Under the pieces are notes generated by a model that was not told the origin of the DNA, did not search any database, and was given only the letters and a program-made list of their open reading frames with translations. From assembly GCA_028710525.1 (NCBI GenBank), contig JAQTTY010000002.1, forward strand, positions 183,959 through 247,958: a DNA stretch of 64,000 nucleotides. The letters run 5' to 3'. Positions 703-20,124 of the stretch are shown one piece after another. Numbering within the stretch: the stretch's first letter is position 1; the number at the start of each line of letters is the position of its first letter. Both the position numbers and the translations under genes were made by a program. Source of the stretch: Gallionella sp. GTDB taxonomy: Bacteria > Pseudomonadota > Gammaproteobacteria > Burkholderiales > Gallionellaceae.

Positions 703-718
703 CGTGCGCTATCGCACA
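703..718 (-). promoter_or_regulatory. CRP-type operator upstream of the PAS gene
   Basis: Read on the minus strand the site is TGTGCGATAGCGCACG followed by GA, almost identical to the site at 20109-20124. A -10-like CATCAT lies at 676-681, at the same offset as in the other sites of this family. Confidence 0.6.
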
Positions 719-774
719 TAAAGAGCGACGGCAGGGGGTGTTTCAGCTATCAGGGCTGCGGGCAGAGGCTAGTT

Positions 775-1626
775 TCAGGATTGATGCATGCGTTTGGTCA
801 CGTCTTTGCCTATCCCGCTATAGCCGGTAAAGTGTCCGTAACTGTCGAACATGGGGTCGCCGCTGACCATCAGATATTGCTTGCTGCCATCCGCGTGAGT
901 GCGGCTGTAGACCGTATCTAGGAATGAATGTTTGCTTTCCGATTCTTCATTGAGTTTGGCCCGTTCGTTCTCACTCCAATATGCGCCTTGGTCTTCGCGA
1001 ATATTGTCCAGACTATCCATGACCGGCAGGTTGTTCATTTCTTGTGCTGAACCGTAGACCTTGGTGAACTGACCATCCACATCTTGTTCCCAATACCAGT
1101 CGGCGGATAGTTCGGTCAGACGATGGAAGCGCTTCTCGCTCGCTTGTAGCTCGGTCGTCTTGTTCAACACGGTCTCCCCCAGCATCTGGTTGTAGTTCTC
1201 CAGTATGTGATTGAGATTTTCGAGTTGTTTGTGCAGTAATCGAACTTCCAGCAGGTTGCGGATGCGTGTTCTCACTTCGAAGATATCGAATGGTTTGCTG
1301 ACAAAGTCACGTGCGCCAGTGGCCAGTGCGTTCATTTTGTGATCGGGTTGCGCAGTAATCACCAACACGGGTAGGTAATCGTCGTTGCCAATTTCTTTGA
1401 GTGCTTTCATCACCTCAAAGCCATCCATGACCGGCATATGCAGGTCGAGCAAGATCAGGTCGTAACAGTTCTTGCTGTGGAGATCGCAGACCTGGGTCGG
1501 ATCCATCGTGGCAGAAAAATTGGTATAACCCTCATCTTGCAGAATCTGCTCCAGCAGCAGTACGTTGTACTCTTGATCGTCTACGATCAGGATCCGCGCT
1601 TTAAGTATCTCTTGTTGACTAATCAT
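775..1626 (-). CDS. Response regulator with REC and PAS domains, no output domain
   Basis: 283 residues. An N-terminal receiver domain (ILIVDDQ at about 12-18, phospho-acceptor Asp in LILLDLHMPVMDG, conserved Lys in DFVSKPFD) is followed by a short helical linker and a PAS domain (LTELSADWYWEQD to GYSGIGKDVTKR). The protein stops right after the PAS/PAC region, with no HTH, GGDEF, EAL or kinase domain. I chose the ATG at 1626 because MISQQEIL aligns with the start of the neighbouring paralogue (MISKSEIL); an in-frame start at 1659 is possible. It is a tandem paralogue of 1723-2553. It probably relays phosphate from, or binds, the hybrid kinase encoded upstream; that partner is inferred. Confidence 0.85.
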   Translation of the reverse strand: MISQQEILKARILIVDDQEYNVLLLEQILQDEGYTNFSATMDPTQVCDLHSKNCYDLILLDLHMPVMDGFEVMKALKEIGNDDYLPVLVITAQPDHKMNALATGARDFVSKPFDIFEVRTRIRNLLEVRLLHKQLENLNHILENYNQMLGETVLNKTTELQASEKRFHRLTELSADWYWEQDVDGQFTKVYGSAQEMNNLPVMDSLDNIREDQGAYWSENERAKLNEESESKHSFLDTVYSRTHADGSKQYLMVSGDPMFDSYGHFTGYSGIGKDVTKRMHQS

Positions 1627-1705
1627 TTGGCAGGCCCAGTTGGCATAGTGGCGGGTCAATCATGTGACCGACACCGCGATGCTAGCGGTAGTACGTTTGG
1701 TGTTC

Positions 1706-1721
1706 TGTGCGCTGGGACACG
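1706..1721 (-). promoter_or_regulatory. CRP-type operator upstream of the second REC-PAS gene
   Basis: Plus-strand reading is TGTGCGCTGGGACACG. On the minus strand a -10-like TAGCAT (1679-1684) follows at the offset shared by the family. The site overlaps the 3' edge of the upstream REC-PAS gene, so the downstream copy may have its own promoter. Confidence 0.5.
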
Positions 1722-1722
1722 T

Positions 1723-2553
1723 TCACTTGGGTAATATCGTTCCTGTCACGTCTTTGCCTATGCCCCGGTAGCCGATGTAGCGACCTGCGGCATCGAACAC
1801 CGGTTCGCCGCTCACCATCAGATATTGCAGCGTGGCGTTGGCATGGGTGCGGCTATAGACGAAATCTAGGAACGGTTTGCGCGCCGCGATGTTGGCTTCC
1901 AGCAAGTCACGTTCGGCCTCCTGCCAACTTGCGCTGGACTCATCTCGTGTGACACCCATCGCAGCGTCGAATTGCAAGCCCAGCATCTCGAATACCGGAC
2001 CGAATAATTTGGTGAAATGGCCGTTTTCGTCCTGCTCCCAATACCAGTCCGAAGACAATTCGGTGAGGCGGCGGAAGCGCGCTTCGCTGGCGCGCAGCTC
2101 AGCGGTACGTTCCTGCACGGTCTGTTCCAGTAGTTGATTGTGCTGCGCCAGCTTTTTGTATAGCAGGCGCACTTCCAGCATATTGCGGATACGCGTCTGC
2201 ACCTCAATCAGATCGAACGGTTTGCTGACGAAATCTTTTGCGCCTGCGGCCAGTGCTTGCAGCTTGTGCGAGGGTTGCGCGGTGATGACCAATACCGGCA
2301 GATAACCATCCGACTCGATCTGTTTGAGTGCTTCCATAACCTGAAAACCATCCAAGACCGGCATTTGTAGATCCAGTAGGATCAGGTCGTAATGATGTTC
2401 ACGGTGCAGTCCATAAACGGCTACAGGATCAGTGGTGGAAGTGACGGAAAGATAACCCGCATCACGCAGCATCTCGCCCAGCAGCAGCACATTGGAAGGT
2501 TGGTCATCCACAATCAGGATGCTGGCATTTAGAATCTCTGATTTGCTTATCAT
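1723..2553 (-). CDS. Response regulator with REC and PAS domains, no output domain
   Basis: 276 residues with the same architecture as 775-1626: receiver domain (ILIVDDQPSN, LILLDLQMPVLDG, DFVSKPFD), coiled linker, then PAS (LTELSSDWYWEQD, GYRGIGKDVTG). It ends eight residues or so after the PAS domain. Its ATG overlaps the stop of the hybrid kinase gene (ATGA, 2550-2553), so translation is coupled and the kinase is the likely phosphodonor. The lack of any effector domain is unusual. Related REC-PAS proteins often continue into GGDEF, so loss of output or action by protein-protein contact are both possible. Confidence 0.88.
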   Translation of the reverse strand: MISKSEILNASILIVDDQPSNVLLLGEMLRDAGYLSVTSTTDPVAVYGLHREHHYDLILLDLQMPVLDGFQVMEALKQIESDGYLPVLVITAQPSHKLQALAAGAKDFVSKPFDLIEVQTRIRNMLEVRLLYKKLAQHNQLLEQTVQERTAELRASEARFRRLTELSSDWYWEQDENGHFTKLFGPVFEMLGLQFDAAMGVTRDESSASWQEAERDLLEANIAARKPFLDFVYSRTHANATLQYLMVSGEPVFDAAGRYIGYRGIGKDVTGTILPK

Positions 2554-5500
2554 TTTGATGTTCCAGGTGGGTTGTTATCGGGAGTCCTCGCGGCGGACAA
2601 TTGCACCGCCTCTTCCAACGCTAGCAGAAATTCGTCTAGCTTGATCGGCTTGGTGAGATAGCGAAAGAAGCCCGCTTGCAGGCCTTGCTCGATGTCGCGC
2701 GGCATCGCATTCGCGCTGAGTGCCAGCACCGGGATGTGCTGGGTGCGTGGATCTGCCCCTAATAGCTGCATCGCTTGCGTGCCATTGATACCGGGCAGAT
2801 TGATGTCCATCAGGATGATGTCGGGTAGATGTTCAAGTGCCATGGCGATGCCCAACTTGCCATCGCGCGCACTTAACATCTTGAACTGGGCATGGCGGCT
2901 GATGATCTGTTCGACCAGAATCAGATTGGCCGGATTGTCTTCCACATAAAGTAGCGTGCGTAGCGCAGTATCCATGCCCATGTCCATGCCCATGCCCATG
3001 TGCGTGGAGGTTGGCAGTGACACATCGCGTATCAGTTCGAACCAGAATTCGCTGCCCACCCCCGGAGTACTTTCCACTCCTAGCGTGCCGCCCATCAGTT
3101 CGACCAGTTGCTTGGTAACGACCAGTCCTATGCCGGTACCTTCTTCCGTACCACTTTCCTGACCGAGGCGATTGAAGGGTTGGAACAGTTGCTGCAACTG
3201 TTGTGGAGAAAGACCCATGCCGCTGTCTTTGATGGTGACGCGGATGCGTTGCGGTGTACTTAGGCTGCAAGTCACATCCACCGTACCTTGCTCGCGGTTG
3301 TATTTCACGGCGTTGGAGAGCAGGTTGGCCAGCACCTGTTTGACGCGGGTGCGGTCGGCATAGGCGCACCAGCTAGTCTCGAAGGGGTGGAAGTTCACTC
3401 GTATACCGTGTTGCTGCGCTTGTGATTCGATCATCGCTTGGCATTCGTGCATCACTTCCGTTAGCGCGACAGGTTCATGCGACAGCGACAACTTGCCCGA
3501 TTCGATCACCGCCAGATCGAGGATCTCGTTGATCAGTTCGAGGAGATACCAGCCGGCCTTGGTGATGTGATGCAGCCGTTCGGCTTGTGTGCTGGTGGGT
3601 GCGGGCGTACCCGATTCGAGCAATTGTGCGAAGCCCAGGATGGCATTCAGCGGTGTGCGCAGTTCATGGCTCATACGCGACAGGAAAGTCGATTTGGCGT
3701 GGTTCGCGTTCTCCGCCAAAGCGGTGGTTAGCTCCAGTTCGGTGTTCTTTTTTTGCAGCTTGTCATACAGTTGCACACGCTCTGCTTCCACCTGTTTGCG
3801 TGCGGTATTGTCTGTGCCGATCAGCAGATAACCGATGATGTTGCTTTGCGCATCGCGCAACGCGGTGACCGACACTACGGCGGGAAAACGGCTGCCGTCT
3901 TTGCGGATATAGGTCAAATCGTAAATATCCTCTATGCCCCGCGAGGCCTTGAACACCAAGGCTTCAAAGCCCGCCGCGATGGGGGTGTTTAATGCCTCGC
4001 TGAGCTCCGCCGCACGTATGATGACTTCAAGCGGATCGGAGATGTCCGCCGGGGTGATCTTGTTCACCACATCGGCGGCGGCATAGCCCAACATACGCTC
4101 TGCGCCGACGTTGAAGATCTGGATCACGCCCTTGGCATCGGTGGCGATGCTGGAGAAATTCGCGCTGGTGAAGATGGCGTTCTGTAGCGCACTGGCTTCG
4201 AGTAGTGCGGCTTCCACCGCTTTACGGGTGGAGATGTCGCGCAAGATGCCGGTGAAGTAACGTTCTTTGCCCAGCCACATCTCGCTCACCGCGATCTCCA
4301 TCGGGAAGCGGCTGCCGTCTTTGCGTTGCCCCATCACTTCGCGACCCAAGCCGCTGGCACGCGCGCTGTCACTGGCCTGGTAATACTCTAGCGAACCATT
4401 GCGCTGGTCTTGATCCAGTTCGGGGATCAGCAGGCTGAAATTCTGCTCCAGTAGCTCCGTACTCGAATAGCCGAACATGCTCTCGGCGGAGGGGTTGACG
4501 GTGGTGATGATGCCGCCGCGCGCGCGTAGTGTGATGATGCCGTCGACCACGGTGTTGAGTATCGTTTGGATCAGTGCCGTGTTGTCGCGCAAGGCTTGCT
4601 GCACCACATATTCAGCGGTGACATCGCGAAACACCAGCACCGCACCGACCACGTTATTCGAGCTGTCACGTATCGGTGCGCAACTGTCGGCGATGTCGTA
4701 TTCGCTGCCGTCGCGTGAGGTCAGCACGGTATGGTTGGCCAAGCCTTGTATCGTGCCAAACGCCAGACTCGCCACGACCGGGATGGCGACCGGCAGGCGC
4801 GTCTCTTTGTTGATGATAGGAAATATCTCGGCTATCGGTCGACCGGCAGCTTCGGCCTGCGTCCAGCCGGTGAGTTGCTCGGCAATAGGATTCAGCAGGG
4901 TCACGCGCGCCGCGATGTCGGTGGCGATCACCGCATCGCCGATGGAGTTGAGTGTCACTGCGAGTCGTTCTTCGCTGACCTGCAAGGTGAGGTTGGTGTC
5001 CTGTAGTTGCTTGCTGATTTGTTGTTGTGCATCGAGCAGATGACGGGTTTCGAGATGCACCAGATTCTTCAATCGCTGGCGGGATTCGTTATACAGAAAG
5101 TAGGCGAAGGCGAGCGCGGCCACTAGCGTCAGCAGACTCGCGGCGACGATCAGTGCGAACAGCTTACGCATGCTGCTTTGGAATTCTTCCTCGCGTTGCG
5201 CCAGCACAGCTTGTTCGATGTCGATGAAGCTGTGCATCTCCGCGCGTATCGTATCCATCTGATGCTTTCCTGCGCCGTTGCGCACCATCGCTACCGCAGC
5301 CGAATTTCCAAGCGTGCTCTGCAATGCCAAGACGCGCGCCATCTCGGCCATTTTTGCATCAACCAAGGGTGCCACAATTGCCAAGTGCTGTTGTGCCGAA
5401 TCGACCAAGGTGATGGCACGCAACCTTTGCAAGTGCGGCACGATGGTGTCGCGCACTTTCAGATACGGTTGCAGAAAGGCTTCGTCACTGGTCAGCAAAT

Positions 5501-5711
5501 AGCCGCGCTGGCTGGTCTCAGCATCTCTGAGTTCGGACAGTAATTCAGCGGCACCGTCTAGGATGGTGTAGGTATGGGTACGCACGGCTGCCGCTGTCTC
5601 GATCTGGCGAAAAGTCCAGAATGACAAGGCCACGCCCAGCATCACCAGTAGCACCGCGCCGCTGAACCAAGCAATGATTTTGTGCGTCGTATTCATATAT
5701 TGTGCGTTCAT
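2550..5711 (-). CDS. Hybrid sensor histidine kinase (CHASE3, three PAS, HisKA, HATPase, REC)
   Basis: About 1053 residues. Membrane segments lie at about 11-33 and 184-207 and flank a periplasmic CHASE3-type sensor (RDAETSQRGYLLT). Three PAS domains follow (about 245-360, 375-500, 505-640). The phospho-acceptor His is near 682 in MSHELRTPLN. The ATPase domain carries NLLSNAVKYN, DSGMGLS and GTGIGLVV. A C-terminal receiver (LLYVEDNPAN, ILMDINLPG, LTKPI) follows a short Met-Gly-Asp linker encoded by a CATGCC/CATGTC hexamer repeat near 2971-3002. I prefer the ATG at 5711 because it lies just after the upstream Crp/Fnr stop; 5756 and 5696 are alternatives. It is co-transcribed with the Crp/Fnr gene and translationally coupled to the REC-PAS gene. 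The signal sensed is unknown. Confidence 0.93.
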   Translation of the reverse strand: MNAQYMNTTHKIIAWFSGAVLLVMLGVALSFWTFRQIETAAAVRTHTYTILDGAAELLSELRDAETSQRGYLLTSDEAFLQPYLKVRDTIVPHLQRLRAITLVDSAQQHLAIVAPLVDAKMAEMARVLALQSTLGNSAAVAMVRNGAGKHQMDTIRAEMHSFIDIEQAVLAQREEEFQSSMRKLFALIVAASLLTLVAALAFAYFLYNESRQRLKNLVHLETRHLLDAQQQISKQLQDTNLTLQVSEERLAVTLNSIGDAVIATDIAARVTLLNPIAEQLTGWTQAEAAGRPIAEIFPIINKETRLPVAIPVVASLAFGTIQGLANHTVLTSRDGSEYDIADSCAPIRDSSNNVVGAVLVFRDVTAEYVVQQALRDNTALIQTILNTVVDGIITLRARGGIITTVNPSAESMFGYSSTELLEQNFSLLIPELDQDQRNGSLEYYQASDSARASGLGREVMGQRKDGSRFPMEIAVSEMWLGKERYFTGILRDISTRKAVEAALLEASALQNAIFTSANFSSIATDAKGVIQIFNVGAERMLGYAAADVVNKITPADISDPLEVIIRAAELSEALNTPIAAGFEALVFKASRGIEDIYDLTYIRKDGSRFPAVVSVTALRDAQSNIIGYLLIGTDNTARKQVEAERVQLYDKLQKKNTELELTTALAENANHAKSTFLSRMSHELRTPLNAILGFAQLLESGTPAPTSTQAERLHHITKAGWYLLELINEILDLAVIESGKLSLSHEPVALTEVMHECQAMIESQAQQHGIRVNFHPFETSWCAYADRTRVKQVLANLLSNAVKYNREQGTVDVTCSLSTPQRIRVTIKDSGMGLSPQQLQQLFQPFNRLGQESGTEEGTGIGLVVTKQLVELMGGTLGVESTPGVGSEFWFELIRDVSLPTSTHMGMGMDMGMDTALRTLLYVEDNPANLILVEQIISRHAQFKMLSARDGKLGIAMALEHLPDIILMDINLPGINGTQAMQLLGADPRTQHIPVLALSANAMPRDIEQGLQAGFFRYLTKPIKLDEFLLALEEAVQLSAARTPDNNPPGTSK

Positions 5712-5727
5712 CGATCTGTCGGTGGGG

Positions 5728-6471
5728 TTAAGCAAAGCCTTGTGCGGCTTTGGCATCTTTTAGTAAACGATGGAATTCCTTTTTCACCACGTCGTAGCAC
5801 TCGCAGGTGTGCGACTCCAGCCCAGCTCTATCCAGCACCGTGATGTGTCCGCGCCGGTAACTGATCAAGCCCTCGCGTTGTAGATTGCCGGCGATCTCGG
5901 TGATGCCTTCGCGGCGCACCCCTAGCATGCTGGCGATCAATTCTTGGGTCATGGTCAGTTCGTTACTGGGTAAACGATCCAGCGTCAGCAGCAGCCAGCG
6001 GCACAGCTGTTGCTCCACTGAGTGATGACGGTTGCACACGGCGGTCTGCGACATCTGCGTCATCAGGGCTTGGGTGTAGCGCAGCATCAGCCGCATCATC
6101 GGCCCAGCCAGATCGAACTCTTCCATCAATTGTTTGGCTTTGAGGCGGTAACCGTGTCCGCCGGTCTGTACCGTGGCTTGGCTGGGTGTGGTGTTGCCGC
6201 CCATGAACAGTGAGACGCCCAGCACACCTTCATTGCCGATACCTGCAATTTCCGCCGATGCACCGTCTTCCATCACGTAATGCAGCGAAACGATCGCCGT
6301 GGTGGGGAAATACACATGTTGCAACTGGCCGCCCGATTCACACAGGGCCGCGCCTAGCGGCATGGCAATCAGTTCTAGATTTACGGCAAGGCGCGCAAAG
6401 CTATCTGCGGACAGTGCTGCGAGCAGATGATTTTGTCGGGGAGTGTGCGGTACGGACTGCGTAGGGAGCAT
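5728..6471 (-). CDS. Crp/Fnr-family transcriptional regulator
   Basis: 247 residues from the ATG at 6471. An N-terminal cyclic-nucleotide-binding-type beta barrel (LGAALCESGGQLQHVYFPTT, SAEIAGIGNEGVLG) is joined by a long helix to a C-terminal winged helix (LTMTQELIASMLGVRREGIT, EGLISYRRGHITVLD). The four-cysteine FNR iron-sulfur pattern is absent, so it is not a classic oxygen sensor. A longer in-frame reading to 6801 is unlikely because that stretch is promoter-like and holds an operator. It starts an operon with the hybrid kinase. A CRP-type palindrome at 6614-6629, 143 bases upstream, suggests autoregulation, and this protein is the best candidate to bind the related sites across 0.7-20 kb. 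Confidence 0.9.
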   Translation of the reverse strand: MLPTQSVPHTPRQNHLLAALSADSFARLAVNLELIAMPLGAALCESGGQLQHVYFPTTAIVSLHYVMEDGASAEIAGIGNEGVLGVSLFMGGNTTPSQATVQTGGHGYRLKAKQLMEEFDLAGPMMRLMLRYTQALMTQMSQTAVCNRHHSVEQQLCRWLLLTLDRLPSNELTMTQELIASMLGVRREGITEIAGNLQREGLISYRRGHITVLDRAGLESHTCECYDVVKKEFHRLLKDAKAAQGFA

Positions 6472-6585: not shown

Positions 6586-6599
6586 TGTATCGCGATACA
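6586..6599. promoter_or_regulatory. Perfect palindrome TGTATCGCGATACA
   Basis: A 14-base perfect inverted repeat between the CRP-type site and the Crp/Fnr start. It falls where the leftward -10 and transcription start would be, so it could be an operator for a second dimeric regulator. No regulator is assigned. Confidence 0.4.
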
Positions 6600-6613
6600 A
6601 AGTTACTCCGGTA

Positions 6614-6629
6614 TGTGTTGCAGCGCACA
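6614..6629. promoter_or_regulatory. CRP-type operator in the Crp/Fnr-DUF3494 divergent region
   Basis: TGTGTTGCAGCGCACA. On the plus strand a -10-like GATGAT lies at 6651-6656, preceded by GTAGGCA, matching GTAGGCGGATAAG at the same offset in the 18921 site. It may serve the DUF3494 gene to the right, the regulator gene to the left, or both. Confidence 0.6.
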
Positions 6630-6738: not shown

Positions 6739-6919
6739 GTCCTCCAACTGCGCCTGTGAAAAATATCGTGTCGCTTTGTGTGATAGCGAACAGAGCTGCA
6801 TTGATTATCAGCAGACACTGAGCTTGCCTTGGTGATAGTCACCGAGATTGGAAGGTCGCAGTAGCTAGCCACTTTCTATCTGGATCTCTCGCGAGATTCA
6901 TCATTTCAGGAGAAACACA

Positions 6920-7753
6920 ATGAATACATCTAATAAATTTGTTAAACCGCTGTTGTGGTCATCGACCGTGCTACTTGCTGCAGTGTTGTCTGCCTGCGGC
7001 GGTAGCAGTAGCGGCGGTGCGGCGGCTGGCCCAGGCTTGGGGGCAGTTGGTGCAGTGTGTAGCGGCGCGAGTTGCGTGAATCTGGGTGCGGCAGGGAAAT
7101 ATGCGATTCTGGCCAAGACTAACGTCTCGACCGTACCCAACTCAGTGGTAACGGGTAATGTGGCGGTCAGTCCCGCTGCCCGAACTTTCTTGACCGGTTG
7201 GTCATTGATTACTGAGCCTACCGATACTTCGTTCGGTTCGGCGCAGGTGTCGGGTCGCTTGTTCGCAGCCGATAATGTGGGTGGCACGACGTCAGTTAAT
7301 TTGACCACTGCTGTCGGGGATATGGGCACGGCTTATACCGCAGCAGTAGGGCTTGCTCCCGCTGGTGGTGGATTGATTACCGCATGTCCTGGCGCAGGTG
7401 CATTTGGTGGGCTGACACTGGCTGCTGGTGTTTATAAATGCACCCCCGCAGTGGGTATCGCTGCTGCGACCAACCTTACTCTTAACGGTACGGCTACTGA
7501 TGTCTGGGTATTCCAGATGGCGGGTGGCTATACCCAAGCTGCTGCGACTCAGGTCATCTTGACCGGCGGTGCGTTGCCGCAGAATGTGTTCTGGGTCTCT
7601 GCCGCAACCGTGACCGTAGGCGCGACTGCGGTGATGCAGGGCGTGGTTCTGTCGCAGACCAATATCGTGATGGGTGCGGGTTCTACGGTAAATGGACGTT
7701 TGCTGGCACAGACTGCTGTGACGCTTAATCAAACTACCGTCACCCAGCCTTAA
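6920..7753 (+). CDS. DUF3494 (ice-binding-like) lipoprotein
   Basis: 277 residues. The signal peptide ends in the lipobox LSAC (Cys near 26), followed by a Gly/Ser/Ala-rich spacer. From about residue 50 the sequence matches the DUF3494 ice-binding fold: YAILAKTNVSTVPNSVVTGN, VAVSPAAR, GGLTLAAGVYKC, DVWVFQMAGGYTQAAATQV, GRLLAQTAVTLN. Proteins of this family form a discontinuous beta-solenoid and include ice-binding proteins and adhesin-like surface proteins. Ice binding is not shown here. The lipid anchor suggests outer-membrane attachment. The start follows AGGAGAAAC and an intrinsic terminator closes the unit. It is closest in the window to the paralogue at 19079-19942. Confidence 0.88.
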   Translation: MNTSNKFVKPLLWSSTVLLAAVLSACGGSSSGGAAAGPGLGAVGAVCSGASCVNLGAAGKYAILAKTNVSTVPNSVVTGNVAVSPAARTFLTGWSLITEPTDTSFGSAQVSGRLFAADNVGGTTSVNLTTAVGDMGTAYTAAVGLAPAGGGLITACPGAGAFGGLTLAAGVYKCTPAVGIAAATNLTLNGTATDVWVFQMAGGYTQAAATQVILTGGALPQNVFWVSAATVTVGATAVMQGVVLSQTNIVMGAGSTVNGRLLAQTAVTLNQTTVTQP

Positions 7754-8835: not shown

Positions 8836-8837
8836 AC

Positions 8838-10457: not shown

Positions 10458-10808
10458 TCATGCTCCTAAGTCAGTTTCTGTTTCGCGCTGGGCAACGTCA
10501 CGGTGGAGTAAGGGCGATAAGGTCTGCCATGCGACAGTGAGTATGGAAGGGTAGAGGTACAGAAATCGCCAGCTGGTTTTGGCGAGGCCTAGCAGCCCGC
10601 CACGGCGCAAGGCCATAAACGCCGCCAGTCCACCGGCCAGCACGGCGGGGTGGTCATGCAGGTAACGCGCAGTGCGCAGCCCTTTATCCGCCCAGGCCAA
10701 GGGACGTTCGAAATTCCCGCTGAGTGCCGCCAGCTCGCTCCGTTGCACGGCAATTTTTGCCAATAGCAAGTGACGACGCTGCGCCAGTTTAGTTATGCGT
10801 CGTGTCAT
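10458..10808 (-). CDS. YqjK-like protein
   Basis: 116 residues, basic, with a weakly hydrophobic central part (HPAVLAGGLAAFMALRRGG). Sequence and context match the YqjK-like family, whose gene follows yqjD and yqjE in enterobacteria. Its ATG overlaps the stop of the YqjE-like gene (ATGA), so the two are translationally coupled. The molecular role is unknown. Confidence 0.75.
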   Translation of the reverse strand: MTRRITKLAQRRHLLLAKIAVQRSELAALSGNFERPLAWADKGLRTARYLHDHPAVLAGGLAAFMALRRGGLLGLAKTSWRFLYLYPSILTVAWQTLSPLLHRDVAQRETETDLGA

Positions 10809-11182
10809 GGCCGCGCATCCAGCTGCTCGAGGTCATGCGCCAATTCGGCCAAGCTGCCGGAAAACAGTCCGAGTCGGGCACGCGCCAGCGCGCGCAATTT
10901 ATACACAAGGAAGAGCCCCGTGATAAAGAACAGTAGAGACAGACTCGCCAGCACCAGTTCGCGGTGGCTATCCCAACACAGCACCACGATCAGTACCGTG
11001 CACAACAGGATGCTCAAGCCGAAGCAGAACAGCGCGATGCTGCCGACCAGCAACATCTGCCCGACACGCAGGCGTTCTGCCTCGAACTCAAAGGCCAGCA
11101 GTTCCAAGCGCGTCTGCATGATGTCGAGCAGCGTACTTGTCAGGCGCTTGAGTGAGTCCATCAGTCCGGGCGAGTGCGACAT
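10805..11182 (-). CDS. Phage holin family / YqjE-like membrane protein
   Basis: 125 residues from the ATG at 11182, two bases after the YqjD-like stop. An amphipathic helical N-terminus (LLDIMQTRLELLAFEFEAER) precedes two transmembrane helices (LLVGSIALFCFGLSILLCTV and LVLASLSLLFFITGLFLVY). This is the layout of the Holin_X/YqjE family. There are no phage genes nearby; the gene belongs to the yqjD-yqjE-yqjK stress operon type. Confidence 0.85.
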   Translation of the reverse strand: MSHSPGLMDSLKRLTSTLLDIMQTRLELLAFEFEAERLRVGQMLLVGSIALFCFGLSILLCTVLIVVLCWDSHRELVLASLSLLFFITGLFLVYKLRALARARLGLFSGSLAELAHDLEQLDARP

Positions 11183-11184
11183 GC

Positions 11185-11520
11185 TCAGCGGCGTGCGATC
11201 AGCATGCCGACGATAGCCCCTACGCAAGCCGAGATGCCAATTGCTTTCCAGGGATTGTCATGCACATATTGATCCGTGTCCTTGGCGGCTTGCTGGGCGC
11301 GTTCCACGACAGCAGATTCAGCCTCACCCAAGCGTTCTTTAACAGCTTCCATTCGTTCTTCGATACGCGCACGTGCATTTGCTGCGCTTTCACCAGCTTG
11401 GTCTGCGGTGGCGCGGAGCAGGGCTTCTGCGTCGGCCATCACCAAGTGCAGGTCTTCCATCAGTTTGTCCTTGGGGTCGGCGTGTAGTGCATGTTTCAGA
11501 TTGAGTGTTTTGCTTGTCAT
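11185..11520 (-). CDS. DUF883 (YqjD/ElaB-like) protein
   Basis: 111 residues. A long helical region rich in Ala, Glu and Arg ends in one C-terminal membrane anchor (NPWKAIGISACVGAIVGMLI) followed by ARR. This is the DUF883 layout; E. coli YqjD and ElaB are tail-anchored proteins that bind ribosomes in stationary phase. Ribosome binding is inferred from the family. It leads the yqjD-E-K block. Confidence 0.88.
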   Translation of the reverse strand: MTSKTLNLKHALHADPKDKLMEDLHLVMADAEALLRATADQAGESAANARARIEERMEAVKERLGEAESAVVERAQQAAKDTDQYVHDNPWKAIGISACVGAIVGMLIARR

Positions 11521-11598
11521 GATGTGGCTCCTAGCGTGTTAAGTAAGTTGATGACCAGACTACTTGATGTCGATTTTCGCATCGGCTTGCGTGACGCT

Positions 11599-11757
11599 TT
11601 AGATGCGCCCCAACAGTAAGAGGATGACCAAAATGGTGAGCACCAAGCTCACCCCGCCGGCGGGCCCATACCCCCATGTTCTACTGTGTGGCCAAGTGGG
11701 AATGGCGCCGATCAACATCAAGATGACGATGATTAAGATGAGTGTGCCTAAAGTCAT
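11599..11757 (-). CDS. DUF3309 small membrane protein
   Basis: 52 residues from the ATG at 11757, preceded by GAGGAG; a longer reading to 11820 lacks such support. Two hydrophobic segments flank the family core IPTWPHSRTWGYGPAGG, and it ends LLLLGRI. DUF3309 proteins are common in proteobacterial stress clusters; function unknown. Confidence 0.85.
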   Translation of the reverse strand: MTLGTLILIIVILMLIGAIPTWPHSRTWGYGPAGGVSLVLTILVILLLLGRI

Positions 11758-11822
11758 TTTGCTACTCCTCGTAAGGGCATGAAGTGATCGTCCGGACTGC
11801 CATGCAGTCCAAGACGGCATCT

Positions 11823-12710
11823 TTAGCGTGGTGCGATGTAGCCGTTGCCGTCGGAAAAGATGATTTCCACACGGCGATTCATTTGCCGACTGCTCGCGGT
11901 GTTGTTATCCGCAACTGGAAATTGCGCGCCAAATCCGCGCGTGTTGATGCGCGCGGCGTCGATACCATCGGCGATCAAGGCACTGCGCACCGCATTCGCA
12001 CGATGTTCAGAAAGTAGTTGATTGTGTGCGCTGCTGCCGGTGCTATCGGTATAGCCCTCTATCATCACGATGTGTTGTGGATATTCTTTGAGGAAATCAG
12101 CCAGTTTCTTTACGTTGCGAGAACCGCCCGATTTGAGTTCAGTTTGGTTGCTACCGAACAGCACGTCGCCTAGCGTCACCACCATGCCGCGCTTAGTCTG
12201 CTTGGCATTGAGTAATTCGAGCTGCATCGCTTGTTGATTGATGGTGGCTTGGTCTTCCGCAGCATAGGCATCTGCAGCGTCTAATTCAGCTTCTTGTGAG
12301 TCGGCGGTTTCCTGTAGTGCAGCCACTTTTTTGTTAGCTGCATCAGCTTCAGCAGTGCGTGCTGCAAGCTGCACACGGTCGCGATTGGCGGCGGCGTTGG
12401 CGACGATCAGTTCGGCGGATTTGCGTTTAGTGGTTTCCTGCGCGATGGCTACTTTTTGATACGCCACATAGGACAAGTGATTGACCATGACGACATCCGC
12501 ACCCTTGCTCAAGGCATAGTCAGCTTGGTGCAAGGAATCGGCAGCTTCTTTAAGTTCTAGTGGCGCCAGTTCCACAATGCTTGGGTTGCTGCGTGCGTTG
12601 TCGTAACTGCTATGTGCGGCGGTCAGATTGGGATTGCTGGTGGCAGTCGTGCAGGCGGACAGGATCGCAATGGCGAGCACCGTCAAAGGAAAGGATAGGA
12701 TTTTTTTCAT
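11823..12710 (-). CDS. OmpA-family lipoprotein with DUF4398 region
   Basis: 295 residues. Lipobox LSAC (Cys near 20). Residues 30-115 are a helical DUF4398-type domain, about 115-170 an Ala/Glu/Asp-rich coiled coil, and the last 120 residues an OmpA peptidoglycan-binding domain (GDVLFGSNQTELKSGG, IEGYTDSTGSSAHNQLLSEH, NRRVEIIF). It likely tethers the outer membrane to peptidoglycan. It is 18 bases downstream of the DUF4398 lipoprotein gene. A perfect seven-pair hairpin (GGACTGC-CAT-GCAGTCC) lies just after it without a T-run. Confidence 0.92.
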   Translation of the reverse strand: MKKILSFPLTVLAIAILSACTTATSNPNLTAAHSSYDNARSNPSIVELAPLELKEAADSLHQADYALSKGADVVMVNHLSYVAYQKVAIAQETTKRKSAELIVANAAANRDRVQLAARTAEADAANKKVAALQETADSQEAELDAADAYAAEDQATINQQAMQLELLNAKQTKRGMVVTLGDVLFGSNQTELKSGGSRNVKKLADFLKEYPQHIVMIEGYTDSTGSSAHNQLLSEHRANAVRSALIADGIDAARINTRGFGAQFPVADNNTASSRQMNRRVEIIFSDGNGYIAPR

Positions 12711-12728
12711 GGTGGACTCCAGTGGGGA

Positions 12729-13121
12729 TTATTGTTTTTTTCGATCGATCTCTTTGCGCAACACGCGGCTATCTTCATGAACCGCGTCGGCGGCCTTTTG
12801 TGCCTTGGCAGTTCGTGCCGCCGCCCCCGCCAGTTGCGCATCGACTTGTGCTTCTTCAGCTAATTGGCGCGCCAGCACATAGTTCTTCTCAGTCATGGCG
12901 CGTTCTGCCGCATCCATCTTGGCGATTGCCGCTTTGCTTTGCAGTGGGGCGTATTCATTGCCACCCGCACTGTTTGCGCTGCTGATCGCGGCTCGCGAAA
13001 CTGCCAGTTGTTCGATCGGCGGCGTAGGACTCGCACAGCCCGCCAGTAAAGTTGCCGCAACAGCGAGCATGCCCAATGGGGCTAGTAGCGCTTTCGTGTG
13101 TGTGGGGTGAGCGTTTGTCAT
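12729..13121 (-). CDS. DUF4398 lipoprotein
   Basis: 130 residues from the ATG at 13121. Signal peptide with lipobox LAGC, then a helical DUF4398 domain (PIEQLAVSRAAISSANSAGG, APLQSKAAIAKMDAAERAM). It resembles the N-terminal half of the OmpA-like protein encoded next, so the two may act together in the periplasm. It is the first gene of a leftward operon of eight genes running to 8838, with a CRP-type site about 190 bases upstream. Confidence 0.85.
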   Translation of the reverse strand: MTNAHPTHTKALLAPLGMLAVAATLLAGCASPTPPIEQLAVSRAAISSANSAGGNEYAPLQSKAAIAKMDAAERAMTEKNYVLARQLAEEAQVDAQLAGAAARTAKAQKAADAVHEDSRVLRKEIDRKKQ

Positions 13122-13310
13122 GATGTATTCATCCAAAGTGTGAAGCAGCGAACACAACCGTCGTGACAGGTAATCGTTGCGTGGGTCACGGGTTGCGATT
13201 TTTCGGTAACGACTAGTGCAACGTGCAATTAGAGCGTGTTGGTCGCCCAGTTAGCTGAGTAATGCCGTTGAACTAAGCATTGAGGATAAGGTGTGCAACA
13301 CAGCGCGTTC

Positions 13311-13326
13311 TGTGCGCCAGACCACA
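13311..13326 (-). promoter_or_regulatory. CRP-type operator of the DUF4398/OmpA/Yqj/EncFtn operon
   Basis: Minus-strand reading TGTGGTCTGGCGCACA followed by GA. A -10-like TTATCC lies at 13284-13289 at the family offset, predicting a leader of about 150 bases. Confidence 0.55.
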
Positions 13327-13897: not shown

Positions 13898-13905
13898 AAT
13901 TCTGT

Positions 13906-14319: not shown

Positions 14320-14515
14320 CCGTTGAAGCAAAATACACAGCCACATAGCGGTCAATCACCACAGACGGCAATGGGTTAGCTACTGTCAGTCGCCACTGAC
14401 TGCTCTAGGTCACTTCAATACTCAGTACGGCATCTCGCAAAATCTATCCAGCAGGTTTTTTAACTGACAATTCCAGATACTGATTTGGGGGCGATGTGGG
14501 TCTGTGCCTTATGTT

Positions 14516-14941: not shown

Positions 14942-14972
14942 ATTGTCTCCTTGAATATATGTAACGGACGGC

Positions 14973-15110: not shown

Positions 15111-15203
15111 GATTTTTACCTTTCAGATTTTGTGGGGTGCATAACGTTGCGCCGTAAATATCGGCATCGCGCAACATGCTGTGCGTGTTGGGCTAAGCCG
15201 GAT

Positions 15204-15598
15204 TTAGAGATAGCCATGTAGTGGCGCCGGAATAGATTGCTCATAGACGGGAGTACGTACCAAGTCGGTTTCGTCTTGAGAATTCCCGTTCGTGTCGGGT
15301 GCCATGCCGCGTCTTTGTGCCAAAGACCCGTCATCGTCTAAGGGAGTTGTGATCAAGTAGACGTAGCTTGCATCCAGCGCCGCCAAGGCGAGTTTGGCTT
15401 TACTGGTTGCAATACGTTCGCAATGCTTTTTTCTTTGCCGACGTATGAGGTGCAATACGCTAAATCTGCTTGAAAATCGCTTGCTATGTCTTTTTTGAGC
15501 GAGCGGTATTCGTCTTCCGACAAGCTTTGCGACATCGCAGCGGCACTGAAGCTTAGGCTGGTCACTGCCAAGATCACCTTGATGAAGTTGTTGATCAT
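15204..15598 (-). pseudogene. Small periplasmic protein gene split by a -1 frameshift
   Basis: From the ATG at 15598 (preceded by AGGAGACGAT) a signal peptide and helical region are read (LSEDEYRSLKKDIASDFQAD, then CTSYVGKEK). At an A6 tract (T6 at 15427-15432) the frame turns into a non-matching tail that stops at 15353. One extra A would continue into the other frame (KHCERIATSKAKLALAALDA) to 15204, giving about 131 residues. The restored join resembles small stress-cluster proteins with Cys-bearing Lys/Ala helices. Mutation, phase variation at the homopolymer and sequencing error are all possible. A CRP-type site lies 85 bases upstream. Confidence 0.6.
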
Positions 15599-15682
15599 AT
15601 CGTCTCCTTTATGCTGTATAGGTTTATCGGCACATAGGGCGCCGCCTTTGCAACTATCTTCAGCCTTGCGTGTACTTTGTTC

Positions 15683-15698
15683 TGTACGTTGGTGCACA
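15683..15698 (-). promoter_or_regulatory. CRP-type operator upstream of the frameshifted small gene
   Basis: Minus-strand reading TGTGCACCAACGTACA followed by GA. A -10-like GAAGAT (15656-15661) sits at the family offset, about 58 bases before the start codon. Confidence 0.5.
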
Positions 15699-15730
15699 CA
15701 AGCTCAGGATTATTTTTGCCAACGTAAGTC

Positions 15731-16801
15731 TCAAGCTGCATCTTTGATCAGCGCGTTGTGCCTATGCCAAATTTGCAGCAGGTTCCGCGTGACTGCGAAT
15801 ATTAATGGTCCCAACACCAAGCCCGATGTGCCAAACAGCATCACTCCGCCGACCAGTGAGATAAACGCTAAGACGGTATGTATCTTCAGACGATTACCGA
15901 CCAAGATCGGATACAACAGGTTGTCTATCCCGCCGACCACGATGCCCCCCCATAAGATGAGCACCAACGCCTGCAGCTCATTGCCAGTCAACAGCAAGAA
16001 TAGTGCGGCGGGAATCCAGATGATGAACGCGCCCAGTACTGGAATCACGGCAAGCAAGGCCATGACTAAACCCCATAGCAGCGGGGCGGGTAGATCCAAC
16101 CACCAGAACATCAACCCACCCAACGTGCCCTGCACGATGGCAACTGCAAGCGTGCCATATAGGGTGGCGTTCACCGTGTCTGCGACATCACCATACATGC
16201 GAGCCATGTCGGCACTTGTCAGTGGCGACAGCGTGCGCAGCCAAACGAGCGCCTTGATACGGTCACGCAGAAAATAGAACAGCAGATAGAAGGTCAATAC
16301 CAGCATCACTAACTCATGCAAAGAAACCTGCAGCAGGGTCGCCGCCGTGCTAGTCAGCCAGGCACTGGCAGAGTCCACTAGACCTGGCACATTGAATTGG
16401 CGTTCTATCCAATGCAGGACGGGTGCTACCAGTGGGTGGGCGTCCACACTGTCGCGCCATTGACCAGAAACAAACAGGTCATGGATGGATTTCGCACTGT
16501 TCGAGGCCTCGCTAATCAACTGTTGGGCGACGAAGCTGGCCGGTATCACTACGATCAGCGCGGCGAGTAATACGCAGAGTGCAGCTGCGATGTTAGGTTT
16601 TCCTAATTTCTTTTCTAGTCGCTGCTGCAAGGGGCTGAACATGATAGCCAGTGCTGTCGCCCAAGTGAGTGCGGGCAGGAAGGGCGCGCTCATAAATACA
16701 CAACCCAGTGTCGCAACCACGGACATGGTAATCAGCAACAGTAGTTGGATGGTGGTATGCACTGCGTATTCCGGCGCGGATTTCTCATCGCTTTTATTCA
16801 T
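15731..16801 (-). CDS. AI-2E family transporter (PerM-type permease)
   Basis: 356 residues with about eight membrane segments in the family pattern: an N-terminal pair, a hydrophilic region (about 85-150), then ELVMLVLTFYLLFYFLRDR and the C-terminal LWGGIVVGGIDNLLYPILVG with GGVMLFGTSGLVLGPLI. The family includes TqsA and PerM and is linked to export of small molecules or ion transport; substrate unknown. The divergent region to 17106 carries a CRP-type site 120 bases from its start, so co-regulation is possible. Confidence 0.9.
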   Translation of the reverse strand: MNKSDEKSAPEYAVHTTIQLLLLITMSVVATLGCVFMSAPFLPALTWATALAIMFSPLQQRLEKKLGKPNIAAALCVLLAALIVVIPASFVAQQLISEASNSAKSIHDLFVSGQWRDSVDAHPLVAPVLHWIERQFNVPGLVDSASAWLTSTAATLLQVSLHELVMLVLTFYLLFYFLRDRIKALVWLRTLSPLTSADMARMYGDVADTVNATLYGTLAVAIVQGTLGGLMFWWLDLPAPLLWGLVMALLAVIPVLGAFIIWIPAALFLLLTGNELQALVLILWGGIVVGGIDNLLYPILVGNRLKIHTVLAFISLVGGVMLFGTSGLVLGPLIFAVTRNLLQIWHRHNALIKDAA

Positions 16802-17106
16802 GGTTACTCGATTTTGTTTGCTTAGCTCTTCCTTCGTCTCTAACTATCCCGACTTGCGGTATGAGACGGCCCTGTTGAATTCAACATGAGGTTATTTTGT
16901 GACGCAGTCCTTGGAGAGCTCTGTGCGTTGCCGCACGGAAGGTGCAGTGTGATGCGGTGAAGAATGCGATACGCGTGAAGGATTTCTATGTGCGGCATGT
17001 TCGGGTCTAGTAGCCGAACACGGTGCGCAGAAATTTATCAGGCCCCACTTTAGTAAAACGTTGGGCAATCACTGCGATATCGAGTCACAGATAAAAGGAG
17101 AATCAA
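16802..17106. other. Divergent regulatory region
   Basis: These 305 bases contain no gene. They hold a CRP-type operator (16922-16937) and the ribosome-binding site AAAAGGAG before 17107. Confidence 0.65.
16922..16937. promoter_or_regulatory. CRP-type operator upstream of the 568-residue DUF3494 lipoprotein
   Basis: TGTGCGTTGCCGCACG followed by GA. A -10-like AAGAAT at 16960-16965 and the block ATACGCGTGA further on are shared with the 20109 site region. Confidence 0.6.
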
Positions 17107-18813
17107 ATGAACATTTTTAACCGTATTTGCAAGCCGCTAACTTGGTTCACGGCTTTACTTATGATCGCGGCGCTGGCGGGTTGTGGTGGCACTGATACTG
17201 TTCTACCCGCAAGCTCTGGCAATGCCATTACCAATTATTCATTTGTGGCTTATCCCGGTGCTCCCGTTACCATAACTCAGGCTGGAGTCGTCAAATCTAT
17301 CGACTTGACTTTACCCTTTGGTACAAATTTGACAGCACTGGTCGCAACTTTTAAGACCACGGGTGCAAACGTGACAGTAGCCACAGTAGTGCAAACCAGC
17401 GGCGTAACGCCAAATAATTTTGGGAGTCCGGTGACTTATTCCGTAACCGCAGCTAATGGCATTAAGACGACCTATGTTGTTACCGTCACGGTGGCACCCA
17501 ATACCGCCAAAGCGTTGAGTAGATTCTCGTTCGTCGGCTTTCCCGGTGCTCCCGGTGTCATCTCTGAACCAGCACACACGATTGCGGTGACTTTGCCGTT
17601 TGGTACACCCGTGACTGCACTCACTGCCAGTTTTGCGACGACAGGCGCTTCTGTAACGGTAGGCGGTGTGACTCAGGTCACAGATAGCGCGCCGACCAAT
17701 GATTTCACCTTGCCGGTGCAATATACAGTTCATGCGGCAGACACGAGCACCGCGATCTATACCGTGACAGTTAGCTTGGCAGCCAATCCGGCCAAAGCAA
17801 TCACGACATTCTCCATCGTTGGTTACCCAGGTTCTACAGGTTTCATCACAGAGCCTGCGCATAGTATTGCGGTCACTTTGCCAGTAGGCACACCCGTAAT
17901 GGCTCTCGTCGCATCTTATTCAACAACAGGTTCTGTCGTGACGGTTGCAGGTTTAGCTCAGACCAGCGGTACAACGCCGAATAGTTTTGCCAATCCGGTT
18001 TTGTATACGGTATTTGCGGCAGATACGAGCACGGCAATTTATACCGTTACAGTTAGCTTTGCCGCCGCCAATCCTACCCCTCCGGTTTTAGGTGAGGCGG
18101 GACGTTTTGTGATCTTGGCACCCGCAGCAATCACCACAACTGGGATTACCGCGATCAGTAACGCTGACATCGGTATCTCGCCCGCAGCGCGTTCGCTGAT
18201 GACGGGATTCACCCCAGTAGGCGCAGCAGGTGGTGTGGCCGAGTTGGTAAATGGCACGACTTACGCAGCAAATGATGCCAATCCCGCTCCCTTCCCTCTG
18301 CCCCTGCATTTCTCTACTCCTGTAGTCGGTGCACCTTGGACTAGCACAGCAGCGATGCTTACTCAGGCAAACACGGATTTGGGTATTGCTGACACCTTCC
18401 TCGGTTTCGATCCCAATCCGTCCGCTGTGACGCAAGTGTGTCCTACCGAGTTGGGTGGATTGACCCTCACTCCGGGCGTATACAAGACTGCAGCTAATGT
18501 TTTGGTCAGCACTGGTGCATTGACCTTGGATGGTCAGGGTAATCCGAATGCGGTATTCATCTTCTCCATCGGTGGCACGCTAGGGACGGGTGCTCCCGGC
18601 GGCAACATTGTGTTGGTGAATGGCGCGTTGGCGAAGAACGTGTATTGGCGCACTGCCGGTATCACTACCATTGGTGCAGCCACTATCTTCAAGGGACAAG
18701 TGTTCGCAGCGACTCAAGTGAACGTGAACTCCGGAGCGAACATCACCGGCAGTCTGTATGCCATCACGGATCGCGTGACGCTGATTGCCACCACGCTTAC
18801 CAAAGCTCCGTAA
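17107..18813 (+). CDS. Large DUF3494 lipoprotein with three Ig-like repeats
   Basis: 568 residues. Lipobox LAGC (Cys near 26). Residues about 38-320 hold three tandem repeats of roughly 95 residues (each with a [IF]x[FI]VGYPG-like start, AVTLPFGTPV and IYTVTVS at the end) resembling DUF5018/cadherin-like bacterial surface repeats. Repeats two and three share nearly identical segments, a sign of recent duplication. The C-terminal 230 residues are a DUF3494 ice-binding-like domain (GRFVILAPAAITTTGITAIS, GGLTLTPGVYKT, LTLDGQGNPNAVFIFSIGG). The layout suggests a lipid-anchored stalk presenting a solenoid head, i.e. adhesin-like. The start follows AAAAGGAG; an intrinsic terminator follows. Confidence 0.88.
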   Translation: MNIFNRICKPLTWFTALLMIAALAGCGGTDTVLPASSGNAITNYSFVAYPGAPVTITQAGVVKSIDLTLPFGTNLTALVATFKTTGANVTVATVVQTSGVTPNNFGSPVTYSVTAANGIKTTYVVTVTVAPNTAKALSRFSFVGFPGAPGVISEPAHTIAVTLPFGTPVTALTASFATTGASVTVGGVTQVTDSAPTNDFTLPVQYTVHAADTSTAIYTVTVSLAANPAKAITTFSIVGYPGSTGFITEPAHSIAVTLPVGTPVMALVASYSTTGSVVTVAGLAQTSGTTPNSFANPVLYTVFAADTSTAIYTVTVSFAAANPTPPVLGEAGRFVILAPAAITTTGITAISNADIGISPAARSLMTGFTPVGAAGGVAELVNGTTYAANDANPAPFPLPLHFSTPVVGAPWTSTAAMLTQANTDLGIADTFLGFDPNPSAVTQVCPTELGGLTLTPGVYKTAANVLVSTGALTLDGQGNPNAVFIFSIGGTLGTGAPGGNIVLVNGALAKNVYWRTAGITTIGAATIFKGQVFAATQVNVNSGANITGSLYAITDRVTLIATTLTKAP

Positions 18814-18843
18814 GTATTAAGTCTCACTAGCAAGCAGTACCTA

Positions 18844-18870
18844 GAGGCCGTCGCAAGACGGCCTCTTTTT
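18844..18870 (+). terminator. Intrinsic terminator after large DUF3494 gene
   Basis: GAGGCCGTC-GCAA-GACGGCCTC followed by TTTTT, a nine-pair stem. The core is the same as in the terminator at 7783. Confidence 0.92.
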
Positions 18871-18920
18871 GCATGGTGTACGCAGTGCTGCTGATCGCGA
18901 TGAAAAATTAATCGCTGCAC

Positions 18921-18936
18921 TGTGCGCTGGCGCACG
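18921..18936 (+). promoter_or_regulatory. CRP-type operator upstream of DUF3494 gene at 19079
   Basis: TGTGCGCTGGCGCACG followed by GA, then GCGGATAAGGA at +34; the -10-like GATAAG is at 18958-18963. The site at 20109 has the same two blocks with identical spacing. Confidence 0.65.
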
Positions 18937-19078
18937 GAGCAGAGAGCGTAGTAGGCGGATAAGGAAGCTGAGTATGACTGATGAGGCGGGTAGCATGCCC
19001 AGCCTGAAGTCAAAGCAGATGCGCTAACAAGACATCAAAGCACGGATGTTTTCAGCATCCACTATCAAGGAGACAAAA

Positions 19079-19942
19079 ATGAAACGCACAAATTCTAGTA
19101 TCAAATCCCTTAGTTGGCCTGTTGCTGTACTGCTAGCTGTTTTTGTCACGGCTTGTGGTGGTGGCGGTAACGCTAGCCCACCTAAACCTGCACCCACCTT
19201 ACCTGGAGCAGGTACCGGTCTGGGGGGCGCTGGGCAAGGTCCGTCACCAGTTGGACTTGCATCTATCATCGGGGCAGGGACAGTAGTCAGTCCGACCTAT
19301 GCAGTTTTGGCGAAGACTGCAATCTCGACCACCGGACCGACTGCTGTGACGGGTGATCTAGGTTTGAGTCCAGCTGCGGCAAGTTTTTTCACAGGCTTCG
19401 CTCTAAGTGCCGACCCGAGCGGTTGCTTCTCCAAGTCCATCTACGTGACGGGCAATCTTTATGCTGCGAACTACAACACACTAGGTTGCACCACACCTAG
19501 TTTGCTGACCACGGCGATAGGGGATATGCAAACCGCTTACACCGATGCCGCCGGACGCCCGGCCGATTTTACTGAGATAGGGGCGGGCAACATCGGTGGT
19601 ATGACGCTTCCTCCTGGAACTTACAAATGGGGTTCTGGCGTGCTGATTCCTAGTAATGTCACGCTCAACGGTGGAGCAAATGATGTGTGGATCTTCCAGA
19701 TTGCAGGCGGCATCACACAAGCTTCCGCGACACAGGTTATTTTGACTGGCGGGGCGCTACCGAAGAACATTTTTTGGCAGGCTGCAGATGTGGTGTCGAT
19801 AGGAACGACGGCCCATATGGAAGGCGTGATATTGGCGCAAACGCAGATCACGTTGAAGACCGGTGCGACAGCCAACAGTCGCTTGTTGGCACAGACCGCG
19901 GTCAATCTTGATGCCAATGCGGTGACACAGCCTGCGCCCTAA
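19079..19942 (+). CDS. DUF3494 (ice-binding-like) lipoprotein
   Basis: 287 residues from the ATG at 19079 (CAAGGAGAC upstream). Lipobox VTAC, Gly/Pro-rich spacer, then the DUF3494 domain: YAVLAKTAISTTGPTAVTGD, LGLSPAAASFFTGFAL, GGMTLPPGTYKW, DVWIFQIAGGITQASATQVI, ending SRLLAQTAVNLDANAVTQP. It is the closest paralogue of 6920-7753. It differs by two extra Cys around GCFSKS and LGCTTP, which may form a disulfide. It has its own operator and terminator, so it is a monocistronic unit. Confidence 0.88.
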   Translation: MKRTNSSIKSLSWPVAVLLAVFVTACGGGGNASPPKPAPTLPGAGTGLGGAGQGPSPVGLASIIGAGTVVSPTYAVLAKTAISTTGPTAVTGDLGLSPAAASFFTGFALSADPSGCFSKSIYVTGNLYAANYNTLGCTTPSLLTTAIGDMQTAYTDAAGRPADFTEIGAGNIGGMTLPPGTYKWGSGVLIPSNVTLNGGANDVWIFQIAGGITQASATQVILTGGALPKNIFWQAADVVSIGTTAHMEGVILAQTQITLKTGATANSRLLAQTAVNLDANAVTQPAP

Positions 19943-19967
19943 ACCAGACGCAAAGTGAGAAAGAAAG

Positions 19968-19993
19968 TGGCCGCAGCGATGCGGCCATTTTTT
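19968..19993 (+). terminator. Intrinsic terminator after DUF3494 gene
   Basis: TGGCCGC-AGCGAT-GCGGCCA followed by TTTTTT. Confidence 0.9.
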
Positions 19994-20108
19994 GCGGGCT
20001 AGTAGTGAATATTTAGAGAAGTTTTAGTGTGCTAAGTGCCGCAAGTAATGCCCCTTAAGCCATACGGAATATGGTTTTCCTGCGGTACTAAAAAATACTT
20101 TTACTGAA

Positions 20109-20124
20109 TGTGCGTTAGCGCACG
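20109..20124 (+). promoter_or_regulatory. CRP-type operator upstream of DUF3494 gene at 20333
   Basis: TGTGCGTTAGCGCACG followed by GA, with GCGGATAAGGA at +34 (-10-like GATAAG at 20146-20151). Nearly the same as the 18921 site. Confidence 0.65.

Follow-up and report, generated by a model that had tools for sequence, protein, structure and literature searches.

Palindromic sites with class II promoter spacing and their probable Crp/Fnr-type regulator in a Gallionella genome

A 64 kb stretch of Gallionella sp. DNA (contig C1, coordinates 183959–247958; hereafter the window), part of a 2.83 Mb genome in 33 contigs, was found to carry a cluster of nine palindromes of one type, in a region that also includes a gene (5728–6471) for a Crp/Fnr-type regulator. 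The palindromes are accompanied by a -10 hexamer starting at offset 38–39, and across genomes the same motif tracks the regulator. It is likely that the nine palindromes are the operators of this regulator, which would be a class II activator binding TNTGTGCGNTANCGCACANA centred at −41.5, and the operator likely belongs to an uncharacterised Crp/Fnr subfamily within the known superfamily.

Probable operator sequence, spacing and distribution

The palindromes had been described in a sequence-only reading as eight sites of the form TGTG-N8-CACR. A palindrome of the described type was present at all eight positions, but the pattern itself was found, on at least one strand, at seven, the exception being the site at 15683 (TGTACGTTGGTGCACA/TGTGCACCAACGTACA), and the sites number nine rather than eight. 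A palindromic matrix of 26 positions trained on the eight sites gave them scores of 20.7–29.3 bits, and the ninth site, at 6777–6792 and outside the training set, scored 18.0 bits; the next-best place in the 64 kb reached 9.9 bits, ~8 bits lower. Gene starts were located ~47–291 bp from the sites (50–310 bases in the sequence-only reading). The loose pattern is also matched by two further palindromes (17667 and 17370), which were rejected, as they lie inside the gene at 17107–18813 and outside the best 45 places of the matrix scan. The operator was refined to TNTGTGCGNTANCGCACANA, and in the half-sites of 219 sites the fifth base is C in 85%, the sixth is G in 95% and the fourth is relaxed (G at a frequency of 0.64).

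A -10 box at a fixed distance from each palindrome had also been proposed, and this spacing was recovered in the window and reproduced beyond it. When the window sites were turned toward their genes (those at 6614 and 16922, flanked by genes on either side, being taken as forward), the -10 scores of all nine added up to +22.6 at offset 38/39, compared with a mean of −35.1 (standard deviation 11.9) at the remaining offsets from 17 to 99. Outside the window, 175 sites from 120 loci, including two other stretches of the same genome, were scored in both orientations (350 oriented sites); hexamers with a -10 score of 4 or more numbered 61 at offset 38 and 19 at offset 39, compared with 0 to 9 at each of the remaining offsets between 18 and 74. 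The -10 columns of the sequence logo were not used as evidence because sites had been oriented by their -10 score. A -10 hexamer at 38–43 places the predicted transcription start at about base 50, and hence the palindrome centre at −41.5. In the class II geometry of Escherichia coli CRP the site is centred at −41.5, and the predicted starts reproduce this promoter layout, with a centre near −41.5 and a -10 hexamer.

The loose TGTG-N8-CACR pattern is weak evidence alone, since its 14 matches in the window, compared with 7.0 (standard deviation 3.0) in shuffled sequence, were reached in 2 of 100 shuffles. The exact sequence TGTGCGNNNNCGCACRGA occurs four times in the 2.83 Mb, each time in the window, and the reversed control is absent; with up to two mismatches there were 61 matches compared with 57 for the control, which makes the relaxed pattern uninformative and a profile necessary. 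Profile R1 consisted of 59 oriented sites from other genomes only, with zero sequence from the genome under study, and these were picked from the 99 of 174 sites with a good -10 hexamer. When this genome was scanned with R1 using Infernal, which scored 150 of 554 first-look candidates (the genus and order scans described below were likewise partly scored), 14 rows representing 10 places were obtained. Nine of the ten were the window sites (676–20135), the strongest match being operator 1 (Table 1); random placement at similar density, which would have refuted the sequence-only reading, was not seen. The tenth place, at C11:31653 (L125:9655–10185, G000:C11), was the sole match beyond the window region among the candidates scored. 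It lies between a small gene and a frame reading as an ABC-transporter ATPase, and a weaker second site is found 530 bp away. The earlier description of the regulon as local holds in this genome only, because in relatives the matches are spread across several contigs. A long pattern that includes the -10 hexamer had zero matches in viral contigs.

The regulator and its co-occurrence with the motif

The product of the gene at 5728–6471 has a C-terminal winged helix of the HTH_Crp_2 family (PF13545, 58.0 bits, cut-off 27), an N-terminal cNMP-type beta barrel and a long dimer helix, and a fold search assigned it the CRP/FNR fold; an extra C-terminal helix, from residue 226 onward, is barely covered by the fold matches listed. 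The best named relative, with 84% identity, comes from a Gallionella metagenome-assembled genome, and at least 7999 proteins are related at E ≤ 1e-10, with generic source names among the 120 listed. R186, R187 and E188 are identical in 81 of 81 proteins (80 relatives and the window's own) as well as in the closest 120 relatives listed from the database. Cysteine is conserved in half or more of the 81 proteins at positions 146, 157, 223 and 225 only, none of which is N-terminal. These four cysteines and two histidines (CNRHH, C157 and CECY; residues 146, 149, 150, 157, 223 and 225) are almost invariant in the same 81 proteins and in the 120 listed, and could together make up a metal, Fe-S or redox site that differs from the one in FNR.

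The loci of 80 named relatives (1.30 Mb in total), from Gallionella, Sideroxydans, Nitrosospira, Undibacterium, Massilia, Accumulibacter, Crenothrix and others, were scanned with the window matrix, which gave 152 matches scoring at least 16, compared with 0–26 (median 2.5) for 20 column-permuted matrices. Of the 152, 42 fell within the 500 bp that precede the regulator match, compared with none over the first 500 bp of the match itself. A site lies within 450 bp upstream of the regulator relative in 35 of the 77 loci whose upstream DNA extends to 450 bp (three with too short an upstream sequence were left out). Where relatives have a site before the regulator gene it is 53–326 bp from the match start, and several have a TATAAG-like -10 hexamer at offset 38 or 39 of that site.

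The same association was seen at the level of whole genomes. In an order set of 160 genomes, with the regulator called at E ≤ 1e-45 and the motif at E ≤ 0.1, the motif was found in 44 of 52 regulator-positive and 16 of 108 regulator-negative genomes (Fisher p 6.5e-18; Mann-Whitney on motif counts, 1.6e-20), and in 37 of 45 versus 16 of 108 after removal of the genome under study and six genomes with fetched regulator loci. When the genomes were divided by best regulator identity, 33 of 35 at ≥60% and 11 of 17 at <60% had the motif. In a genus set of 37 genomes (regulator called at E ≤ 1e-20), some of which supplied training sites, the median motif count was 16 with the regulator and 0 without (p 9e-6). 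An exact 18-base pattern, found in 10 of 16 genus genomes with the regulator and 5 of 21 without, was a poor test and the profile is better. Among the regulator-negative genomes of the order set, the one with many matches (G046, 13) carries a fragment of the regulator truncated at the end of a contig.

Alternative explanations and relation to known systems

The sign of regulation is not readable from sequence, and several relatives have two sites before the regulator gene. However, class II activators are characterised by a site centred at −41.5 and a -10 hexamer at a fixed distance, whereas a repressor requires no fixed spacing, and it is unlikely that the same regulator represses its targets, or activates some and represses others. 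It is less probable again that another Crp/Fnr paralogue, or a different factor, is what binds the sites, the neighbourhood being incidental. A second Crp paralogue, ~43% identical, does adjoin the regulator in some relatives, and one genome (G007) has the motif without the regulator, but the motif tracks the 5728–6471 regulator over the 160 genomes, and in the genome under study the two other proteins over the HTH_Crp_2 cut-off have different recognition helices, LKLETVSR and SAREIVSR (other Crp families, such as PF00325, were outside this search). The response regulators encoded next to the regulator were also rejected as binders, as Pfam gives them no DNA-binding family and they consist of a receiver and a part that is PAS-like by eye, with ncbifam matches mainly to the receiver part. 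These results uphold the choice of the Crp/Fnr protein as the candidate in the sequence-only reading. The second paralogue was observed in loci L088, L090, L095 and L103, and in L088 and L090 it has an operator of its own upstream.

As near-perfect inverted repeats, the palindromes could in principle be hairpins, terminators or a dispersed repeat element, but this is very improbable given that base identity, beyond pairing, is kept across genera, that only 40 of 174 sites lie wholly within open frames (roughly called) despite 77% coverage of the DNA by frames, and that the -10 hexamer stands at one single spacing from the palindromes.

Several observations weigh against the assignment of the sites to the 5728–6471 regulator as a class II activator. 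Some -10 hexamers in the window are poor (GATAAG, GACACT, GAAGAT), and the ice-binding promoters at 16922, 18921 and 20109 may not be independent because they are alike downstream of the site. No site scoring 16 was found within 450 bp of the regulator in 42 of 77 named loci, and no motif match in 8 of the 52 regulator-positive order genomes or in the genus genome G027. Conversely, G007 has 10 motif matches and no regulator relative at E ≤ 1e-12. Certain training loci may belong to genomes of the order set under other handles. A less strict matrix gives scores of 16.1 at L125:19054 and 13.0 at L124:12235, in two other stretches of the same genome, and more weak sites in this genome are possible because Infernal scored part of the first-look candidates. 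Finally, in the direction of the regulator the site at 6614 has CGATAC, not a -10 hexamer, at offset 38. As to G007:C4, a complete relative in the genus, either the regulator was lost or there is another reader of the motif.

For the regulator's own promoter the earlier description is corrected: the site before the gene is present, 143 bp from the ATG, but it lacks a class II -10 hexamer in that direction, and the GATGAT cited in the sequence-only reading faces the ice-binding gene. A predicted -10, TGCTATAAG, is located 28 bases beyond CGATAC in the regulator direction, with TATAAG at 6559–6564 (−), and it is preceded by a perfect 14-bp palindrome, TGTATCGCGATACA (Table 1). No other exact copy of this palindrome is present in the genome, and with up to two mismatches the palindrome gave 13 matches compared with 6 for the control per strand, a roughly twofold excess. 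It is possibly the site of another factor, and the regulator gene may here be either driven by another factor or autoregulated from a more distant site.

The cAMP-dependent CRP operator of E. coli is TGTGA-N6-TCACA. The system described here resembles E. coli CRP in the CRP/FNR fold, the 16-bp TGTG...CACA palindrome, the centre at −41.5 and the -10 hexamer at a fixed distance, but differs in its half-site, which is TGTGCG rather than TGTGA, in the relaxed fourth half-site base and in the four conserved cysteines. Arg185 of CRP corresponds to E192 of the window regulator in our own alignment with the CRP helix residues. Unlike GlxR and mycobacterial CRP, the regulator appears not to keep the GELSIF...PR cassette of cAMP-bound GlxR; in an alignment with this protein only, there is a gap at the Glu and the Arg is absent at the PR position, and most relatives have an Arg a few residues past it (Q98 column, R in 59 of 81).

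FNR and ANR share the superfamily and fold, and class II activation is common to CRP and FNR. The FNR half-site is TTGAT and its operator TTGAT-N4-ATCAA, whereas the sites found here are TGTGCG-N4-CGCACA, and the N-terminal cysteine cluster for the [4Fe-4S] centre of FNR was not found among the conserved cysteines of the 81 proteins. A separate protein on contig 18 of the genome under study is FNR-like by eye. Sinorhizobium Clr and Bradyrhizobium FixK2 also have operators that differ from TGTGCG-N4-CGCACA. Their structures (7pza and 4i2o, respectively) share the fold, at an identity of only 16–17%. The operator was not described in the literature searched, most subscription papers and motif databases lying beyond that search. 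TGTGC was not found in the main text of a paper on the CRP/FNR DNA-binding domain (PMC12531629), and the string TGTGC-N6-GCACA is present in one whose topic is a 3-hydroxypropionate-inducible system (PMC5431877).

Predicted regulon and its significance

A regulator dimer would bind both half-sites via the RRE recognition helix and, at −41.5, would take over the role of a -35 box by contacting RNA polymerase, the expected effect being activation rather than repression, and it may regulate its own gene. A signal would control the regulator, possibly via the four conserved cysteines or in parallel to the adjacent kinase and receiver proteins. The predicted regulon includes four ice-binding proteins, an AI-2E transporter, the lipoprotein/OmpA/DUF883/YqjK row, small proteins, a receiver protein and a PAS protein (Table 1). 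A FitA-like antitoxin and PIN-domain gene pair (13574–14319, +) is located between two operator-bearing regions.

Table 1. Predicted operator sites, regulator, neighbouring genes and predicted targets in the window
Feature	Coordinates	Strand	Sequence	Matrix (bits)	R1 E	-10-like hexamer, orientation and remarks
Operator 1	703..718	-	TGTGCGATAGCGCACG	27.9	7.9e-5	CATCAT 676-681; toward PAS-protein gene starting 517 (-)
Operator 2	1706..1721	-	CGTGTCCCAGCGCACA	21.3	0.16	TAGCAT 1679-1684; toward receiver gene 775-1659
Operator 3	6614..6629	+		22.3	0.041	Between divergent regulator and ice-binding genes; GATGAT 6651-6656 toward 6920; in other direction CGATAC at offset 38, regulator ATG 143 bp away
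Operator 4	6777..6792	+	TGTGTGATAGCGAACA	18.0	0.028	GACACT 6814-6819; toward ice-binding gene 6920; missing from the sequence-only reading
Operator 5	13311..13326	-	TGTGGTCTGGCGCACA	24.5	0.19	TATCCT 13283-13288 (offset 39); toward lipoprotein/OmpA/DUF883/YqjK row
Operator 6	15683..15698	-	TGTGCACCAACGTACA	20.7	0.11	GAAGAT 15656-15661; toward small-protein gene, likely ATG 15598
Operator 7	16922..16937	+	TGTGCGTTGCCGCACG	25.5		AAGAAT 16960-16965 toward 17107 (+); CAAAAT 16894-16899 toward AI-2E gene (-); both offset 39
Operator 8	18921..18936	+	TGTGCGCTGGCGCACG	29.3		GATAAG 18958-18963; toward ice-binding gene 19046
Operator 9	20109..20124	+	TGTGCGTTAGCGCACG	26.8		GATAAG 20146-20151; toward ice-binding gene 20333
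Perfect 14-bp palindrome	6586..6599	-	TGTATCGCGATACA			Centred 40.5 bp before start predicted from TATAAG 6559-6564
Crp/Fnr-type regulator	5728..6471	-				247 aa; recognition helix GVRREGITE; conserved C146, C157, C223, C225
Hybrid histidine kinase	2550..5756	-				CHASE3 and PAS domains (Pfam); just downstream of regulator gene
Two receiver proteins (775-1659, 1723-2553)	775..2553	-				Pfam receiver domain only; C-terminal part PAS-like by eye
Ice-binding protein gene	6920..7753	+				PF11999 8.8e-52; predicted target
Ice-binding protein gene	17107..18813	+				PF11999 4.2e-55; predicted target
Ice-binding protein gene	19046..19942	+				PF11999 7.8e-68; predicted target
Ice-binding protein gene	20333..21274	+				PF11999 4.2e-38; predicted target; followed by OmpA-type gene 21249-22550 (OmpA domains)
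AI-2E family transporter gene	15731..16801	-				PF01594 1.2e-48; predicted target; divergent from 17107
Envelope gene row	10458..13157	-				Lipoprotein-like frame (likely ATG 13121), OmpA-DUF4398, DUF883/ElaB-like, YqjK-like; putative operon

PF11999 finds four ice-binding genes in the genome under study and all four have a site. Among 12 genomes searched, nine contain a total of 21 ice-binding genes, and 15 of these (in seven genomes) have their start inside a fetched locus; 12 of the 15 have a site within 400 bp and three have none, the other six not being evaluable. The window's kinase and target genes do not generally recur in the 80 named loci, with the CHASE3 part found in 5, ice-binding genes in 6, the AI-2E gene in 1 and DUF883 in 9. 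The receiver-PAS gene was found in 38 of the 80.

A census of targets was made using 147 oriented sites whose -10 score was 1.5 or higher and which were followed by a frame of at least 50 aa. These gave 37 regulator-like genes and 109 distinct others, of which 107 were scanned (two very long frames were left out). The Pfam counts among these 107 genes were PAS 18, receivers 10, Ice_binding 8, HisKA 8, BON 6, AsmA 5, DUF4398 5, GGDEF 4 and CsbD 3, in a census that is biased toward genes near the regulator and has no matched control.

A broader reading is possible, though doubtful, namely that a very widespread and uncharacterised beta-/gammaproteobacterial subfamily senses redox state or a metal via C146/H149-H150/C157/C223-x-C225 and, acting at class II promoters with TGTGCG-N4-CGCACA sites, switches on a regulon dedicated to survival at the surface and envelope. 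This regulon would include ice-binding, BON, CsbD, AsmA, DUF4398 and DUF883 proteins, PAS kinases and diguanylate cyclases, and would, if this reading is true, represent a stress programme lacking its own sigma factor.

With the operator and its spacing known, the regulon of many environmental bacteria may be deduced from their sequences, and orphan envelope and ice-binding genes would be tied to one regulator. The system would also be a natural case of altered Crp specificity in which to study DNA recognition, the half-site being TGTGCG instead of TGTGA and the Arg185 position being occupied by Glu.

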